From NCBI RefSeq assembly GCF_000376265.1, contig NZ_AQWU01000073.1, positions 345 to 64,344 on the forward strand: a stretch of 64,000 bases of DNA, in the 5' to 3' direction. The stretch is from Thermus igniterrae ATCC 700962. GTDB taxonomy: Bacteria; Deinococcota; Deinococci; Deinococcales; Thermaceae. Below are positions 1,485-6,843 of this stretch, piece after piece. Numbering within the stretch: the first letter of the stretch is position 1; the number at the start of each line of letters is the position of its first letter. The notes under the pieces are model-generated. The model was not told the origin of the DNA, searched no databases, and saw only the letters and a program-made list of their open reading frames with translations. The translations under genes were made by a program, and so were the position numbers.

Positions 1485-1751
1485 ATGACGCTGGCCCTCC
1501 TCCTCTGGCTGGAAGCCTTCCGCCTCTTCGGGGCGGGGTTCTTCTACTTCGCCCACGCCGCCCTCACCGCTCTTGGGGCCTTGAGCCCCCTAGAGGCGAG
1601 CTCAGCCCTGGCCTTCCGCCTCCTGGCCGAGCCCCTCTTCGCCCTCTACGGGGGGCATCTGGCCGACCGGTGGCCCAGGGGAAGGCTCCTCCTCCTGGCC
1701 GGGGGGCTCCTCCTCGGCTTCGCCTCCTGGGCGGGAAGGGGGTGGCGGTGA
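1485..1751 (+). pseudogene. truncated MFS transporter (N-terminal piece only)
   Basis: This is an 88-residue frame from ATG 1485 to TGA 1751. It holds two or three transmembrane segments and a good MFS loop-2/3 A-motif (GGHLADRWPRGRLLL, around residues 54-68). It then stops where a complete transporter would continue for about 300 more residues. The next 260 bases contain no continuation that I can read. A TAACCT box ends 8 nt before the ATG, so the remnant may still be transcribed. The simplest reading is a deletion or frameshift relic of a third MFS gene, perhaps left by insertion of the neighbouring radical SAM locus. A short functional membrane peptide is less likely. Confidence 0.5.
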
Positions 1752-1893
1752 AGGCAGGCTAGTACGGACACTTAAAGCCCCGGCCCCGGGGGCGGGCAGT
1801 GGGGGGCGAGGCATTGGGGAAGGACCCCAGAGCCCCCGAGGAGGGCGAGGAGAAGCCACAGGAACTGCATGTTTAAAGGCTACCCAGGCTTAC

Positions 1894-1954
1894 GTAACCT
1901 CCGCGTAACGCCCTGGGGTCTTTATGAGAGTCTTCTGAGTTACGCGAGCGTTAC
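1894..1954. promoter_or_regulatory. phased GTAAC / GTTAC half-site array upstream of the radical SAM gene
   Basis: Two GTAAC half-sites start at 1894 and 1905, exactly 11 bp apart. Two inverted copies, GTTAC, start at 1939 and 1950, again exactly 11 bp apart. Direct repeats at one helical turn are typical of OmpR/PhoB-type response regulators and some other tandem-binding activators. Here one tandem pair faces another across about 40 bp. The array ends 55 bp before the ATG of the maturase gene. No regulator gene for it is visible nearby and no clear -35/-10 pair was found in this gap. Confidence 0.4.
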
Positions 1955-2009
1955 CTTCCCCTTGCTACCTTAAGGCCAGCCTGAGGATGGCCGAGAGGGG
2001 TGAAAGGGC

Positions 2010-3440
2010 ATGCAAGACGGGATGTTGCAGCTACTCGTGGTGAACCTCCATGAACCCGCCCAGGCACCAGCCCGGGGAGGGGCAGCCTATAAGCCGAGCC
2101 GCTTCAACCACTTCCACACCCTGCTCACGGGCGAGAAGCTCGCCTTCAACTCCCTCTCCGGTGGCCTGGCCGTCTTGGATTCAGAAGGATGGGCGCGCTA
2201 CACGGCCCTGGTCAAGGGGGAGCCCTTGGACCCCAAGAACCCTGTAGACCAGGGGCTCGTGGAAGGCCGCTTCGTCGTTCCCGAGAACTTTGACGAGCTG
2301 GCCTACCTTAAGACCCTCCACCTGCGGCAGCGCTACACCACGGAGGCCTGGAGCCTAACGATCTGTCCCACCATAGACTGCAACTTCGGCTGCGACTACT
2401 GCTTCCAGCGGCACCGGGTGAGCCGCATGACCGAAGCGGTTCAGGCCAAGCTCCTGGAGGTCTTCGCTCAAAAAGCCCCCCGCCTCAGCAAGTTCTTCGT
2501 CACCTGGTTTGGCGGTGAGCCCACCCTGGCCTGGGATGTCGTCCAGAGGCTATCCCAGGGGTTCTTGGAGGTAGCCGAGAGGAACCGCGTGGAGTACAGC
2601 GCGAGCCTCATCACGAACGGCTACCTCCTGGACGAAGGGAAGGTGGCGGACATGGTCCGCTACCGCATTCACCTGGTCCAGATCACCCTGGACGGGGACG
2701 CTCCCTACCACGACCAGCGCCGCCACCTCCTTACCGGGGAAGGGAGCTTTGAGCGCATCCTGGCCAACCTGCGCCTCTTCCTCGGGAAACCCGTCTTCGT
2801 CCACATCCGGGTCAACGTGGACGTCCGGAACCGCGAGGGCGTGCCCGCCCTCTTGAAGCGTCTGGCCGAGGAAGGGCTGGCCCACCAGGAGAACCTGCGG
2901 GTCTACTTTGCCCCCGTAACCTCCACCGCCCCGCCCAGCCACGGGGTCAAGGGGTTCTGCTTTACCCGCAAGGACTTCGCCCGGATTGAGCCGGAGTACT
3001 TCACCCTTGCGGAAAGCCTAGGCCTGGCCACCCTTCCCTACCCCTCCCTTCAGCTTGGAGGGTGCGTGGCCGCCCATCCGGAGGGGTTCGTGGTGGAGCC
3101 CGACGGCACCCTGCAGAAGTGCTGGGACACGGTGGGGCAGCCCGAGTTCGCCGTGGGCAACCTCCTGGAATACGATCCCCTGCAACTTGCGGAGAACCCC
3201 GTTTACCAGCGCTGGATGTCCTGGGACCCCTTCTCCGAAGAGCTCGCCTGCTCCCGTTGCACCTGGCTTCCTGCGTGCATGGGGGGGTGCCCCTTGAAGG
3301 TGGTCTTCCCCGAGGCCATGCCTGAGGGGAAGGTGGAGCTGGAGTGCACCACCTTCAAGTGGAACTGGAAGCGTACCTTTACTTTGCTAGCCGAACGTGC
3401 AGGCGAGGCAGAGCCGGCACCTCGCCCCTGCACGGGCTAG
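2010..3440 (+). CDS. radical SAM/SPASM peptide maturase
   Basis: The protein has 476 residues. The radical SAM cluster motif CNFGCDYC (Cys124, Cys128, Cys131; CX3CX2C) binds the SAM-cleaving 4Fe-4S cluster and is followed by the GGEPTL-type SAM contact (FGGEPTLAW). The C-terminus carries a full SPASM signature. It has a CX13GX4C pair (Cys352-Cys371), then CX2CX5CX3C (Cys414, 417, 423, 427) and a last Cys446, enough for two auxiliary clusters. The first 110 residues (FNSLSGGLAVLD and around) resemble the N-terminal region of peptide maturases that holds or replaces a PqqD-like leader-binding domain. The gene sits 18 bp before a 34-codon Cys-rich peptide gene and upstream of ABC exporter genes, the classic RiPP arrangement. 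It probably installs thioether (sactipeptide/ranthipeptide) or carbon cross-links. The chemistry is not predictable from sequence. ATG 2010 has a gaggggtgaa ribosome site. Confidence 0.85.
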   Translation: MQDGMLQLLVVNLHEPAQAPARGGAAYKPSRFNHFHTLLTGEKLAFNSLSGGLAVLDSEGWARYTALVKGEPLDPKNPVDQGLVEGRFVVPENFDELAYLKTLHLRQRYTTEAWSLTICPTIDCNFGCDYCFQRHRVSRMTEAVQAKLLEVFAQKAPRLSKFFVTWFGGEPTLAWDVVQRLSQGFLEVAERNRVEYSASLITNGYLLDEGKVADMVRYRIHLVQITLDGDAPYHDQRRHLLTGEGSFERILANLRLFLGKPVFVHIRVNVDVRNREGVPALLKRLAEEGLAHQENLRVYFAPVTSTAPPSHGVKGFCFTRKDFARIEPEYFTLAESLGLATLPYPSLQLGGCVAAHPEGFVVEPDGTLQKCWDTVGQPEFAVGNLLEYDPLQLAENPVYQRWMSWDPFSEELACSRCTWLPACMGGCPLKVVFPEAMPEGKVELECTTFKWNWKRTFTLLAERAGEAEPAPRPCTG

Positions 3441-3458
3441 GGAAAGGAGGTGAGGAAG

Positions 3459-3563
3459 ATGCGGTGGGTCGTGAAGCCTGGACTGCGTATAGCTCCTAGC
3501 GGCGACTGTGGCTACAATTGTGGGCAGAATTCGGGCTGCGGCATCAACACCAAGCTTTGGTAG
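3459..3563 (+). CDS. putative RiPP precursor peptide, 34 aa, three Cys (CX3CX5C)
   Basis: The frame runs from ATG 3459 to TAG 3563 and is preceded by the strongest Shine-Dalgarno of the window (aaaggaggtga, 3444-3454). The first 16 residues (MRWVVKPGLRIAPSGD) are basic and Cys-free, like a short leader. The last 18 are Gly/Asn/Cys-rich with Cys17, Cys21 and Cys27 and end in a tryptophan (CGYNCGQNSGCG, then INTKLW). It lies directly after a radical SAM/SPASM maturase and before an ABC export operon, where a RiPP substrate is expected. Length, composition and position support it. No homolog was recognised and no Gly-Gly or other protease site is obvious. The leader/core border is inference. Confidence 0.7.
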   Translation: MRWVVKPGLRIAPSGDCGYNCGQNSGCGINTKLW

Positions 3564-3579
3564 CTGAGGCCTAGGTAAG

Positions 3580-3627
3580 GAGGCCAAGGTAGCCTGTGCA
3601 GCGAAGAAGTCAAGGCACCTTGGCCTC
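3580..3627 (+). promoter_or_regulatory. RNA hairpin between precursor gene and ABC operon
   Basis: GAGGCCAAGGT-A-GCC (3580-3594) pairs with GGC-ACCTTGGCCTC (3614-3627), giving a 14-bp stem with one bulged A and a loop of about 19 nt. It begins 16 nt after the precursor stop codon. There is no U-run, so it is not a standard terminator. A stem here often protects the 3' end of a highly expressed precursor message and lowers readthrough into the exporter genes. Confidence 0.5.
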
Positions 3628-3645
3628 ATACTCCGGAATAAAGCG

Positions 3646-4401
3646 ATGAGCCGGTTCCAGTGGTTGGCCGAAGTAAGGCTGATGTTGGAGCACTACAGGC
3701 TATATTGGCTCAACTTCCTCTCCGGAATGTTGGCAGATGTATTGTTTTTCTATGCCATCTTAATCGGCTTGAAAAGCGTAACGAAGACATCTCTACCAAA
3801 CATAGACTCAGGCTCTCTGCTGGCCTTATACGGTGTCTTCCAATTCACAGGGGCCCTTTGGCGAACATTTGCTTCGAATATTTTGAACGAGAGCCTGCTT
3901 GGGACCATAGAGCACCTCTCTCTAGCAAGGGGAGGGTTACTTACCCAGCTAACGGTAAGGGCCTTTGTCCTTGGCCTAAACGGGGGGCTGTATGCCGCGG
4001 CGGTGCTCCTGGTGCTCTACTGGGTGAGCGGCATTTCCTTCCAACTCTCTTGGTGGTGGCCGCTTGGTGTGTTGGCCTTCCTTCCAATAAACCTCGGCTT
4101 AGCTTTCCTCATGGGATCCTTGGGACTTCTCTTTAGACGGGTAGATAGCCTTTTTGTTGTGCTCAATTTCATACTGCTCCCCTACTTTCTTTCCCTTACC
4201 CAATGGCACCCCTACATGGCCTACCTCCCCTTCGCCCCAGGGGCCCACCTGGTGCGGCTTGGGCTCACGGGCGGGGAGTTTGACCGGGAGATCTTCCTCC
4301 TGGCCCTCCTCCAGGGCCTCCTCCTCTTCGGGGCGGGCCTTTGGGCCATGGCCTACATGTACCGCCTAGTCCGCAGGCGGGGTATATTGGGGAGGTTCTA
4401 G
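3646..4401 (+). CDS. ABC-2 type permease 1 of 3 (mosaic composition)
   Basis: This 251-residue integral membrane protein has about six hydrophobic segments. It is a paralog of the next two genes: same length, same N-terminal pattern (E-L-L-x-R-Y-W-N/D-x-L) and same C-terminus (AMAYMYRLVRRRGILGRF). ABC-2 permeases pair with a separate ATPase to export lipids, peptides or antibiotics. The gene is chimeric in composition. Roughly the first 550 bp are close to half A+T with codons unusual for this genome, while the last 190 bp are typical Thermus DNA. The last 64 bp differ from permease 2 at only two positions. No strong Shine-Dalgarno precedes ATG 3646. A role in exporting the modified peptide, or in self-immunity, is inferred from position. 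Confidence 0.75.
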   Translation: MSRFQWLAEVRLMLEHYRLYWLNFLSGMLADVLFFYAILIGLKSVTKTSLPNIDSGSLLALYGVFQFTGALWRTFASNILNESLLGTIEHLSLARGGLLTQLTVRAFVLGLNGGLYAAAVLLVLYWVSGISFQLSWWWPLGVLAFLPINLGLAFLMGSLGLLFRRVDSLFVVLNFILLPYFLSLTQWHPYMAYLPFAPGAHLVRLGLTGGEFDREIFLLALLQGLLLFGAGLWAMAYMYRLVRRRGILGRF

Positions 4402-4406
4402 GGGGT

Positions 4407-5162
4407 ATGGTGCTCTGGCCGCTTTGGAGCGAGTTCCTGCTCTCTTGGGCCCGAACCCGGCGTTACTGGTTCAACACGCTGGCAAACCTGGGGGGGAGCC
4501 TCCTCTACTTCTACGCAATCCTTTTGGGCTTTAGCCGGCTTACCCCCGAGGAGGCCCGCTTCTTGGACCCAGGCCCCCTGCTTCTGGTCTTCACGGCCTT
4601 CAACCTCACCTTGTTCACCTTCCAGTCCATCGCCTACACGGTCCAGGGCGAGGCGCAACTGGGGACCCTGGAACACATGGCCCTGGCCCGGGGAGGCCTC
4701 CTGCGCCAGCTCCTCCTCCGGGCCCTGGTGCAAAGCCTATTCGGAGTTCTCTGGAGCCTTTTGGTCCTCCTACCCTTGGCCTTGGCCTTCGGCGTGACCC
4801 TAGGCCCCCTGGCCCGCTGGCCTTTGGGGTTCTTGCCCCTTTTCCTGGCCGCCTTGGGCTTCGGCCTCCTCATGGGGGCCACTGCCTTGTACTTCAAGCA
4901 GGTGGACGAGTTTTTCACCATCGTCCAGTTCCTCTTCCTGCCCTACTTCTTCTACCTGGTCCGGTTTGAGCCCTGGATGGCCCACCTGCCCTTCGCCCCC
5001 GGGGTGCACCTCCTGCGGCTTAGCCTCTCAGGGGCGGAGGCGCCTTGGGGCCTGTTGGGCCTGGCCCTCTTTCAAGGGCTCCTCCTCTTCGCCCTGGGGC
5101 TTTGGGCCATGGCCTACATGTACCGCCTGGTGCGCAGGCGGGGTATATTGGGGAGGTTCTAG
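4407..5162 (+). CDS. ABC-2 type permease 2 of 3
   Basis: The protein has 251 residues from ATG 4407 and is a paralog of the genes on both sides. It has six predicted membrane spans, an amphipathic start (SEFLLSWARTRRYWFNTLANL) and the conserved end MAYMYRLVRRRGILGRF. The ribosome site (ggggagg) lies inside the last codons of permease 1, so translation is probably coupled. It should form, with its neighbours and the downstream ATPase, an ABC exporter. Three different half-size permeases with one ATPase is unusual, because a dimeric exporter needs only one or two. Confidence 0.8.
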   Translation: MVLWPLWSEFLLSWARTRRYWFNTLANLGGSLLYFYAILLGFSRLTPEEARFLDPGPLLLVFTAFNLTLFTFQSIAYTVQGEAQLGTLEHMALARGGLLRQLLLRALVQSLFGVLWSLLVLLPLALAFGVTLGPLARWPLGFLPLFLAALGFGLLMGATALYFKQVDEFFTIVQFLFLPYFFYLVRFEPWMAHLPFAPGVHLLRLSLSGAEAPWGLLGLALFQGLLLFALGLWAMAYMYRLVRRRGILGRF

Positions 5163-5170
5163 GAGGTGTG

Positions 5171-5932
5171 ATGCTCTGCTGGCAACTCTGGAGCGAGTTT
5201 CTCCTGGAGTGGAACCTGACCAGGCGCTACTGGTTTGACACCCTGGCGGGGCTTCTGGCCTCCGTCCTCTTCTTCTACTCCATGGTCCTCGGCCTGGAGA
5301 ACCTGACCCCCGAGGGGCTGGCGAGCCTAGGTCTGGACCTGGGCCCCCTCCTCCTGGTCTTCGCCGCCTTCAACCTGGTGGTGGGCACCTTCCAGTCCAT
5401 CGCCTATTCCGTACAGTCCGAGGCTGCCTTAGGCACCCTGGAGCATCTGGGCCTGGCCCGGGGAGGGCTTCTCCGGCAGCTTCTCCTGCGCGCCCTCGTG
5501 CAGGGTCTCGCCGGCATCACCTTTAGCCTCCTTACCCTTCTTCCCCTGGTTCTCCTCCTCGGGGTTAGGCTCACCCCCGCCTCCTGGTGGCCCCTGGGCC
5601 TTTTGCCCCTGTACCTCGCCGCCTTGGGCTTCGCCCTCGGCATGGGGGCCCTCGCCCTTCACTTCAAGCGGGTGGAGGGCTTCTTCACCATCGTCCAGTT
5701 CCTTTTCCTGCCCTACTTCTTCTCCCTGGTTCGCTTCGCTCCCTGGATGACCCCCCTCCCCTTTGCCCCAGGGACGCAGCTCCTGAAGCTCGCCCTCACC
5801 GGGGAGGGGGCGTTCCCCGGGCTTCTCCTCCTCGCCTTCGTGCAGGCCCTCCTCTTTCTCGGGGCGGGGCTTTTCGCCATGGCCTGGGTCTACGCGGCGG
5901 TGCGGCGGAGGGGCCTATTAGGGAGGTACTGA
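5171..5932 (+). CDS. ABC-2 type permease 3 of 3
   Basis: The protein has 253 residues from ATG 5171; a GTG at 5168 is also possible. An aggaggtg Shine-Dalgarno lies directly upstream, formed partly by the end of permease 2. Like its paralogs it begins with LWSEFLLEWNLTRRYWFDTL, has about six membrane helices and ends in AVRRRGLLGRY. Its stop overlaps the ATPase start (TGATG). It is most similar to permease 2 by eye, which suggests a tandem duplication. The substrate is unknown. Confidence 0.8.
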   Translation: MLCWQLWSEFLLEWNLTRRYWFDTLAGLLASVLFFYSMVLGLENLTPEGLASLGLDLGPLLLVFAAFNLVVGTFQSIAYSVQSEAALGTLEHLGLARGGLLRQLLLRALVQGLAGITFSLLTLLPLVLLLGVRLTPASWWPLGLLPLYLAALGFALGMGALALHFKRVEGFFTIVQFLFLPYFFSLVRFAPWMTPLPFAPGTQLLKLALTGEGAFPGLLLLAFVQALLFLGAGLFAMAWVYAAVRRRGLLGRY

Positions 5933-6843
5933 TGCGGCTTTTGGTGCAGAACGTCCACAAGCGCTTCGGCAAGCTGGAGGCCCTCAAGGGGGTGAGCCTG
6001 GAGCTTGGGGCCGGGGAGATCCTGGGCCTTTTGGGCCCCAACGGGGCGGGCAAGACCACCCTCATCAAGGTCGTCCTCGGCCTCCTCCTGCCCGACGCGG
6101 GAGAGGTGGTCCTGGAGGAGGGCGGGGCGCGGCGCAGGCCCCAGGGCCACGAGTTCGGCGTCCTCCTGGAGGGAAGCCGCAACCTCTACGTCAACCTGAG
6201 CCTCCTGGTGAACGCCCTCTACTTCGGGGGCATCCGGGGGCTTCCCCCCAGGGAGGTCCGCCCCCGGTTTGAGGCCTGGCTGGAGCGCTTCGGCCTAAGG
6301 GACCGCCTCCACGCCCCCCTCGCCTCCCTCTCCCGGGGCATGCAGCAGAAGGCGGCCTTGGCCCTCGCCCTCGCCCTCAAGCCCCGCTTCCTCCTTCTGG
6401 ACGAGCCCACCCTGGGCCTGGACCCCGTGAGCCGGAGGGAGTTTGAGGGGATCCTCCTGGAGCTTAAGAAGGAGGGCTGGGGCATCCTCCTCACCTCCCA
6501 CGACCTGGAGGTGGTGGAGCGGGTGAGCGACCGCGTGGCCTTCCTCCACCGGGGGGAGGTGCGGCGGCAGGGCCCCACCCGGGCCCTCCTCCGGGACTGG
6601 GCCGGGGAGGGGTACCGGGTGCGCCTCGCCGAGCCCAAGGCGGAGGCCCTCCTCAAGGCCCTGGGCCCCGGCTGGAGTGCGGAAGGCCCCGAGGTCCTCT
6701 TCTTCCTGGGGCCGTGGGAGGCGCTGCGGGAGGTCTTGGGAACCCTCCCCGTGGAAGTGTTGGAGGTCTCCCGGGGGACGCCGAGCCTCGAGGCCCTCTT
6801 CCTCCACCTCTTCGGGGAGGCCCGCCCTTCCCCCAGCGCATAA
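5932..6843 (+). CDS. ABC transporter ATP-binding protein (exporter ATPase)
   Basis: This 303-residue cytoplasmic ATPase energises the three upstream permeases. Motifs in order: Walker A GPNGAGKTT (residues 33-41), a Q-loop region with EGSRNLY, signature LSRGMQQK (a variant of LSGGQ seen in DrrA/CcmA-like exporters), Walker B FLLLDEPTLGLD, and H-loop LTSHD. The last 80 residues form the regulatory tail usual in ABC-2 exporter ATPases. It overlaps permease 3 by one base (TGATG), so it is translationally coupled. It is the last gene of the putative RiPP unit; the next gene has its own promoter-like box. Confidence 0.9.
   Translation: MRLLVQNVHKRFGKLEALKGVSLELGAGEILGLLGPNGAGKTTLIKVVLGLLLPDAGEVVLEEGGARRRPQGHEFGVLLEGSRNLYVNLSLLVNALYFGGIRGLPPREVRPRFEAWLERFGLRDRLHAPLASLSRGMQQKAALALALALKPRFLLLDEPTLGLDPVSRREFEGILLELKKEGWGILLTSHDLEVVERVSDRVAFLHRGEVRRQGPTRALLRDWAGEGYRVRLAEPKAEALLKALGPGWSAEGPEVLFFLGPWEALREVLGTLPVEVLEVSRGTPSLEALFLHLFGEARPSPSA

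Follow-up and report, generated by a model that had tools for sequence, protein, structure and literature searches.

The analysed window, a stretch of 64,000 nucleotides from Thermus igniterrae ATCC 700962, contains on its forward strand a short open reading frame that runs from an ATG at 3459 to a TAG at 3563 and encodes the 34-residue peptide MRWVVKPGLRIAPSGDCGYNCGQNSGCGINTKLW. Residues 1-16 are free of Cys, whereas Cys17, Cys21 and Cys27 form a CX3CX5C pattern and Trp stands at the C-terminus, so that the translation bears out the layout given in a preliminary description of this DNA; overlooked there was that the residue at +3 from each Cys is Asn (CGYN, CGQN and CGIN). A strong Shine-Dalgarno sequence, AAAGGAGG (3443-3450), lies 8 nt ahead of the ATG, and since the alternative in-frame GTG at 3450, which would open a longer frame, overlaps with it, 3459 is the likely start. 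The peptide can be divided at a putative boundary into a leader, MRWVVKPGLRIAPSGD (3459-3506), which is conserved in the Thermus loci and whose MRWVVKP type recurs in Clo7bot and CefA precursors, and a core with three CXXN units, CGYNCGQNSGCGINTKLW, which together with the stop codon occupies 3507-3563. Only 18 nt separate the ATG from the stop codon of the preceding gene (2010-3440), which encodes a radical SAM/SPASM peptide maturase, and the end of that gene, its stop codon and the Shine-Dalgarno sequence of the peptide together form a 26-nt junction block, CTGCACGGGCTAGGGAAAGGAGGTGA (3428-3453). The stop codon of the peptide is followed by an RNA hairpin with an 11-bp stem (3580-3627, z -2.85), a probable attenuator or processing site, then by three tandem permease genes (3646-4401, 4407-5162 and 5171-5932) and the gene of an ABC transporter ATPase (5932-6843), which the permeases would share; all lie on the same strand. 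The permeases are weakly similar to ABC-2 membrane proteins (Pfam), permease 1 solely via its kinship with permease 2, while the ATPase matches ABC_tran (E 4.6e-27) and has drug-resistance and lantibiotic-protection ATPase models, below cut-off, among its best matches. A hairpin stands after the peptide in eight loci, the window and seven others, with z from -1.3 to -3.05 and unrelated sequences; in G020 it is a typical terminator with U5, and in G008 the peptide frame now reads into it. Probably it sets the expression of the precursor above that of the transporter. Upstream, a truncated MFS-like transporter fragment (1455-1751) separates the maturase from a complete MFS gene and is another sign of rearrangement at the locus.

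The maturase comprises 476 amino acids and matches Radical_SAM (Pfam), TIGR04463 (E 4.7e-110), the Clo7bot maturase model TIGR04334 (6.4e-77) and CefB (NF038107, 2.1e-56), but stays below the curated cut-off of each of the three latter models, reaching 368 of the 525 bits required for TIGR04463. This cut-off is passed by none of the 111 genomes of the phylum, which places the Thermales branch outside the model as curated. The CX3CX2C motif (CNFGCDYC) and seven Cys of the SPASM region (352, 371, 414, 417, 423, 427 and 446) are invariant in five homologues. A single AlphaFold2 model of medium confidence (mean pLDDT 68.5) has as its best fold match, over nearly the full length, the SCIFF maturase CteB (5why/5wgg), and its N-terminus shows strands followed by helices as in an RRE. 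For the peptide itself, an NCBIfam scan gave no match at E up to 10 to a Clo7bot or any other peptide model, although filters can discard queries of such shortness; Pfam yielded nothing credible, its one match being at chance level (E 0.041). The genome of the window holds a second maturase copy near a contig end (contig C50; L022, 12248-13578); this copy is 56-73% identical, TGA and TAA codons interrupt it, and the search found no accompanying peptide. In T. composti (G010), the maturase gene (L059, 5001-6380) has an in-frame TAG in place of a Trp codon within the SPASM motif (CSRCT*LPVCMGGC), which may reflect a recent loss, a sequencing error or readthrough; the peptide there is intact.

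The search for related loci covered 27 genomes at genus level, 50 at family level and 111 at phylum level. An open reading frame with the same leader follows maturases that are identical to that of the window as protein (G004), 97-98% identical (T. altitudinis G002, G021 and G025), 71% identical (G010) or 76-78% identical (the Thermaceae MAG G064), the peptides being MRWIVKPSRVQPLGDPGCGGRMPAPCPQR in G004, MRWIVRPSRVQPLGDPGCGGRRPCPTKNPPVLT in G002, G021 and G025, MRWVVKPGLRIGPNGGCDVNCGSNSGCVQNQKLW in G010 and MKWVVKPSRAVQPMGECGARRPCPTKYPPVLT in G064. In these genomes, in the window and in G050 a small Cys-bearing peptide adjoins the maturase. The locus is also carried by T. thermophilus megaplasmids, in pTF24b with the peptide at a site without a listed gene (the gene table is known to be incomplete); on pTHTHE1601 of T. 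thermophilus SG0.5JP17-16 (L084, 7144-7300) a further core variant, beginning MRWILKPDSKKRDSFVCYLK, runs into a transposase gene region. More distant maturases are likewise followed by such peptides: G029 and G030 have one beginning MQAKQIRWIVKP after a maturase of 31% identity, and in G050 two precursors lie in tandem (MEWIVSP... and MKWIVNP...), each assigned to CefA by NF038108. Annotated Clo7bot precursors of Paraclostridium start with MKFIKKP or MKYIVKP and contain CGTNSGC cores, the CefA of Methylomagnum next to an annotated TIGR04463 maturase starts with MQYLVQP, and a lectin-like plus CefA-like protein of Methanothrix starts, after its maturase, with MRYIVQP. In Methanothrix and Methylomagnum (L061, 2116-4728; L087, 1873-3912) this type of leader stands in front of a long lectin-like domain with a CefA-type Cys repeat behind it, which implies that the leader also serves whole proteins; together with the Thermus and Clo7bot examples, this makes the leader common to precursors of very different length and core. 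By these comparisons, the leader is conserved across phyla beside the same maturase branch. Within the window, the motif M[RKQE][WYF][ILV][VKLRI]xP has a single match among the 4,372 start codons of both strands, the peptide itself, a figure of specificity rather than a blind test, as the motif was drawn from the family. Matches to MQFVLQP in L070 and L071, which start with TTG, were judged to be due to chance.

Codon comparisons indicate that it is the encoded peptide that is maintained. Of the 34 codons, 8 differ synonymously between the window and G010 and 9 by replacement (NG86 dN 0.20, dS 0.89); none of the Cys or of the Asn at +3 is lost in the G010 homologue, which also ends in KLW, and four of the six codons for these Cys and Asn are kept through synonymous changes. 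The peptides of G002 and G064 differ over 31 codons by 14 synonymous and 7 replacement codon changes, with dS saturated. On this codon-level evidence, purifying selection acts on the encoded Cys and Asn. The same frame, looked for in relatives that keep the maturase, was found open rather than broken by stops in G004, G002, G021, G025 and G064, though the core differs. Thus, the expectation that an equivalent small frame lies downstream of homologous maturases holds in Thermus and other Thermales, and the reading as a substrate of a radical SAM enzyme gains support from the adjacent maturase, the leader shared across phyla, the selection on codons and these equivalents; the CX3CX5C pattern with C-terminal Trp is real, but marks one core type, common to the window and G010, and not the family. 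The frame at 3459-3563 is very likely a real, coding RiPP precursor.

The loci differ from each other in a block-wise manner. The window and G004 share 99.4% identity over 1690-3479 and are then unrelated until the alignment returns at 4411, while G002 is 97.2% identical over 1948-3467 and returns at 5180; what is exchanged comprises the core, the hairpin and one or more permeases. The maturase protein of G004 is identical to that of the window, yet the core differs; judged by the alignment, window positions 3480-4410, with the core, the hairpin and permease 1, are a single swapped block relative to G004. The cores are hypervariable, with the ribosome-binding site and the start of the leader retained, and the first permease can be predicted from the type of core. 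Permease 1 accompanies type A cores (CXXN, KLW end) in the window and in G010 (77%), and is missing in G004 and G002. Permease 2 corresponds to the first permease (90-99% identity) after the type C peptides of G004, G006, G024, G026 and G016, and permease 3 to the first permease after the type B peptides of G002, G021, G025 and pTF24b (94-96%) and of G064 (67%), so that both, putatively cognate to cores found elsewhere, are orphans in the window. The order of permease types is A, C, B in the window and C, B in G004, with B alone in G002. Between permease genes 1 and 2, identity rises from 42-70% to 85-95% at the 3' ends, a possible crossover site. On the other side, the 26-nt block is a probable 5' boundary of the exchange: it is identical in 13 of the 27 Thermus genomes, with one copy in each, and is kept even where the upstream maturase is deleted or replaced and the downstream peptide is different. 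Its counterpart in G064, CTGCACAGGCTAGAGG, shows a possible compensatory change in a short stem. The simplest reading of the orphan permeases would be retained immunity, and the presence of permeases for three core types in a row suggests bacteriocin-like immunity.

Peptide and maturase are often, but not always, lost together. In T. scotoductus (G017), a deletion from maturase codon 184 to the permease has removed the peptide as well, in G018 a deletion fuses the N-terminus of the maturase to a core remnant, and in G008, where a remnant of the maturase is left, the peptide lacks one Cys that G023 retains. By contrast, the peptide persists in G006, G026, G016 and G020, where a lipoprotein-like gene takes the place of the maturase (the G020 genome is only 65% complete, and contig ends lie nearby in G023 and G024). 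The precursor reading gains from the joint losses and from the lost Cys of G008; against it speak this persistence, the interrupted maturase of T. composti, the maturase scores below cut-off, the lack of a matching peptide model, the core types B and C without CXXN and the medium confidence of the fold model. In the same four genomes the maturase is reduced to its last codons (PAPRPCTG and stop). The lipoprotein-like gene (L074, 2161-3129; in L072 and L075 just before the leader frame) encodes a Cys- and Ser-rich C-terminal segment, and otherwise unrelated proteins in the vicinity of these loci (L074 2161, L075 1418, L018 9630 and 13435, and L014 1223 on the reverse strand) have in common an N-terminal stretch like KEVQEVKxxGRTRRVHVRPFAWN.

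In the type A peptides of Thermus, Asn stands at +3 of 11 of the 13 Cys (shuffle mean 2.4; reached in 0 of 20,000 shuffles), a count in which the window and G010 are not independent, the G018 remnant (CGKNCGEN), G020 (CIGNCGKN) and G023 (CGSN) being different sequences. The corresponding figures are 12 of 45 for Clo7bot (P 0.0015) and 10 of 21 for the CefA of G050, or 16 of 21 with Asp counted (0 of 20,000), and offsets of Asn other than +3 are nearly empty. This enrichment would fit one acceptor for each Cys: every one of the three Cys could have its own Asn as partner, which settles the point raised earlier from the odd number of cysteines. Core types B and C contain Cys without CXXN despite nearly identical maturases, and hence CXXN cannot be the whole rule. 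Ranthipeptides carry thioethers to carbons other than the alpha carbon that are made by radical SAM enzymes, and in sactipeptides the thioether joins a Cys sulphur to an alpha carbon. In NxxcA, Cys23 is linked to the beta carbon of Asn20 by a thioether, and PapA has CX3D motifs with a Cys-Asp thioether at the beta carbon (PMC8326336, PMC9413430). Links of the thioether kind are plausible in the window peptide.

We propose that the TIGR04463-like maturase next to the peptide would bind the leader (MRWVVKP...) with its RRE-like N-terminal region and would cross-link each core Cys, most likely from the sulphur to the beta carbon of the Asn at +3 (C17-N20, C21-N24 and C27-N30), giving up to three rings and a mass loss of 6 Da. 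A protease would then remove the leader, while the ABC permease and ATPase encoded downstream would either export the product or shield the cell that makes it. The block replaced between strains would comprise core, hairpin and cognate permease, the older permeases staying downstream as orphans. That the frame encodes a RiPP precursor with Cys-directed cross-linking by its neighbour we hold to be likely; for the Cys-to-Asn beta-carbon chemistry as drawn here the chances are about equal either way, and a role of the permease and ATPase in export or immunity is similarly balanced. The cassette pattern would fit a bacteriocin-like peptide with self-immunity and a presumed bioactivity.

A precursor of the adjacent maturase with other links, namely from Cys to an alpha carbon (sactionine), to Ser, Thr or Tyr, in the reverse NxxC direction (N24 to C27), or partial with free or disulfide Cys, has a probability slightly short of even. 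Indeed, CGxNSGC contains NxxC besides CxxN, the former being the proven topology of NxxcA, and the enzyme must act differently on the Cys of types B and C that lack CXXN; it is the Asn at +3 in type A, its enrichment in Clo7bot and CefA and the near absence of other offsets that weigh against this. Rather unlikely is a signalling peptide with the permeases as peptide-specific exporters and no antimicrobial role. The title of a reference in PMC8326336 links a SCIFF-derived ranthipeptide to clostridial quorum sensing, and transport specific to each peptide would also account for hypervariable cores that are linked to a permease, whereas the permeases that the window, G004 and G017 retain in the absence of the matching peptides are more easily explained by immunity. 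It is very improbable that the frame is a regulatory leader or attenuator of the transporter genes without a product of its own: the hairpin 3' of the frame, the invariant block upstream and the persistence without maturase in several genomes would agree with it, but selection acts on the encoded Cys and Asn, the leader is common to known precursor families, and the permease type is linked to the core, beyond the leader alone. Least probable of all is an unmodified small metal-binding or disulfide protein, as suggested by three Cys in a Gly-rich segment, given that no credible zinc-finger model was found by Pfam, that the number of Cys is odd, that the cores differ entirely between strains, and that position, leader and relatives tie the peptide to a radical SAM maturase.

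Under the precursor reading, the locus would offer a thermophilic, single-enzyme, 34-residue substrate for the TIGR04463/Clo7bot/CefA maturase branch, with an explicit and easily testable prediction of three CXXN links and a loss of 6 Da, and a natural case in which one maturase serves unrelated cores behind one leader. The exchange of cores and permeases, recorded at the level of strains, can reveal whether peptides of this kind serve as weapons for which a matching immunity exists.

Among the papers searched, none deals with this maturase branch or names TIGR04463 or Clo7bot. The peptide has the layout of the annotated Paraclostridium Clo7bot peptides, with an M[KR][FYW]I-type leader ending in KP and a Cys-rich core. 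Clo7bot peptides with their ctpM maturase (TIGR04334) resemble the Thermus system in the leader (MKFIKKP/MKYIVKP compared with MRWVVKP/MRYIVKP), in the core (CGTNSGC compared with CGQNSGC) and in the position of short precursors directly beside genes for a same-branch maturase and an ABC transporter, but they are clostridial, occur as many tandem precursors and have 5-9 Cys, whereas Thermus has a single precursor with 3 Cys, and their maturase is about 30% identical to that of Thermus. CefA (NF038108), which occurs with TIGR04463 or CefB maturases, is alike in its MKWIVNP/MQYLVQP leader, its CXX[ND] repeats and its maturase branch, but carries long arrays in which each fifth residue is a Cys and which are in some cases preceded by a lectin-like domain; the window peptide, with Cys spacings of 4 and 6, is not matched by NF038108, while the relatives in G050 are. 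Ranthipeptides such as CteA/SCIFF, PapA/freyrasin and NxxcA have in common with it a maturase of RRE, radical SAM and SPASM parts, with CteB as best fold match, and Cys at set spacing from Asn, Asp or Thr, but their known motifs are CX3D and the N-to-C NXXC, whereas the Thermus motif is a C-to-N CXXN with putative links. We tentatively suggest, as a possibility of less than even probability, that a single RiPP superfamily unites the precursors from Thermus with those of the Clo7bot and CefA families, a shared MxWxVxP-type leader directing a maturase of the TIGR04463/Clo7bot branch to link each Cys to Asn or Asp at +3 (CXX[ND], absent among the ranthipeptide motifs found described), and that in Thermus cassettes of core, hairpin and permease are swapped between strains, with old cognate permeases stacked as immunity genes. 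The peptide is very likely a RiPP precursor of the TIGR04463/Clo7bot/CefA maturase branch that stands outside the existing peptide models.
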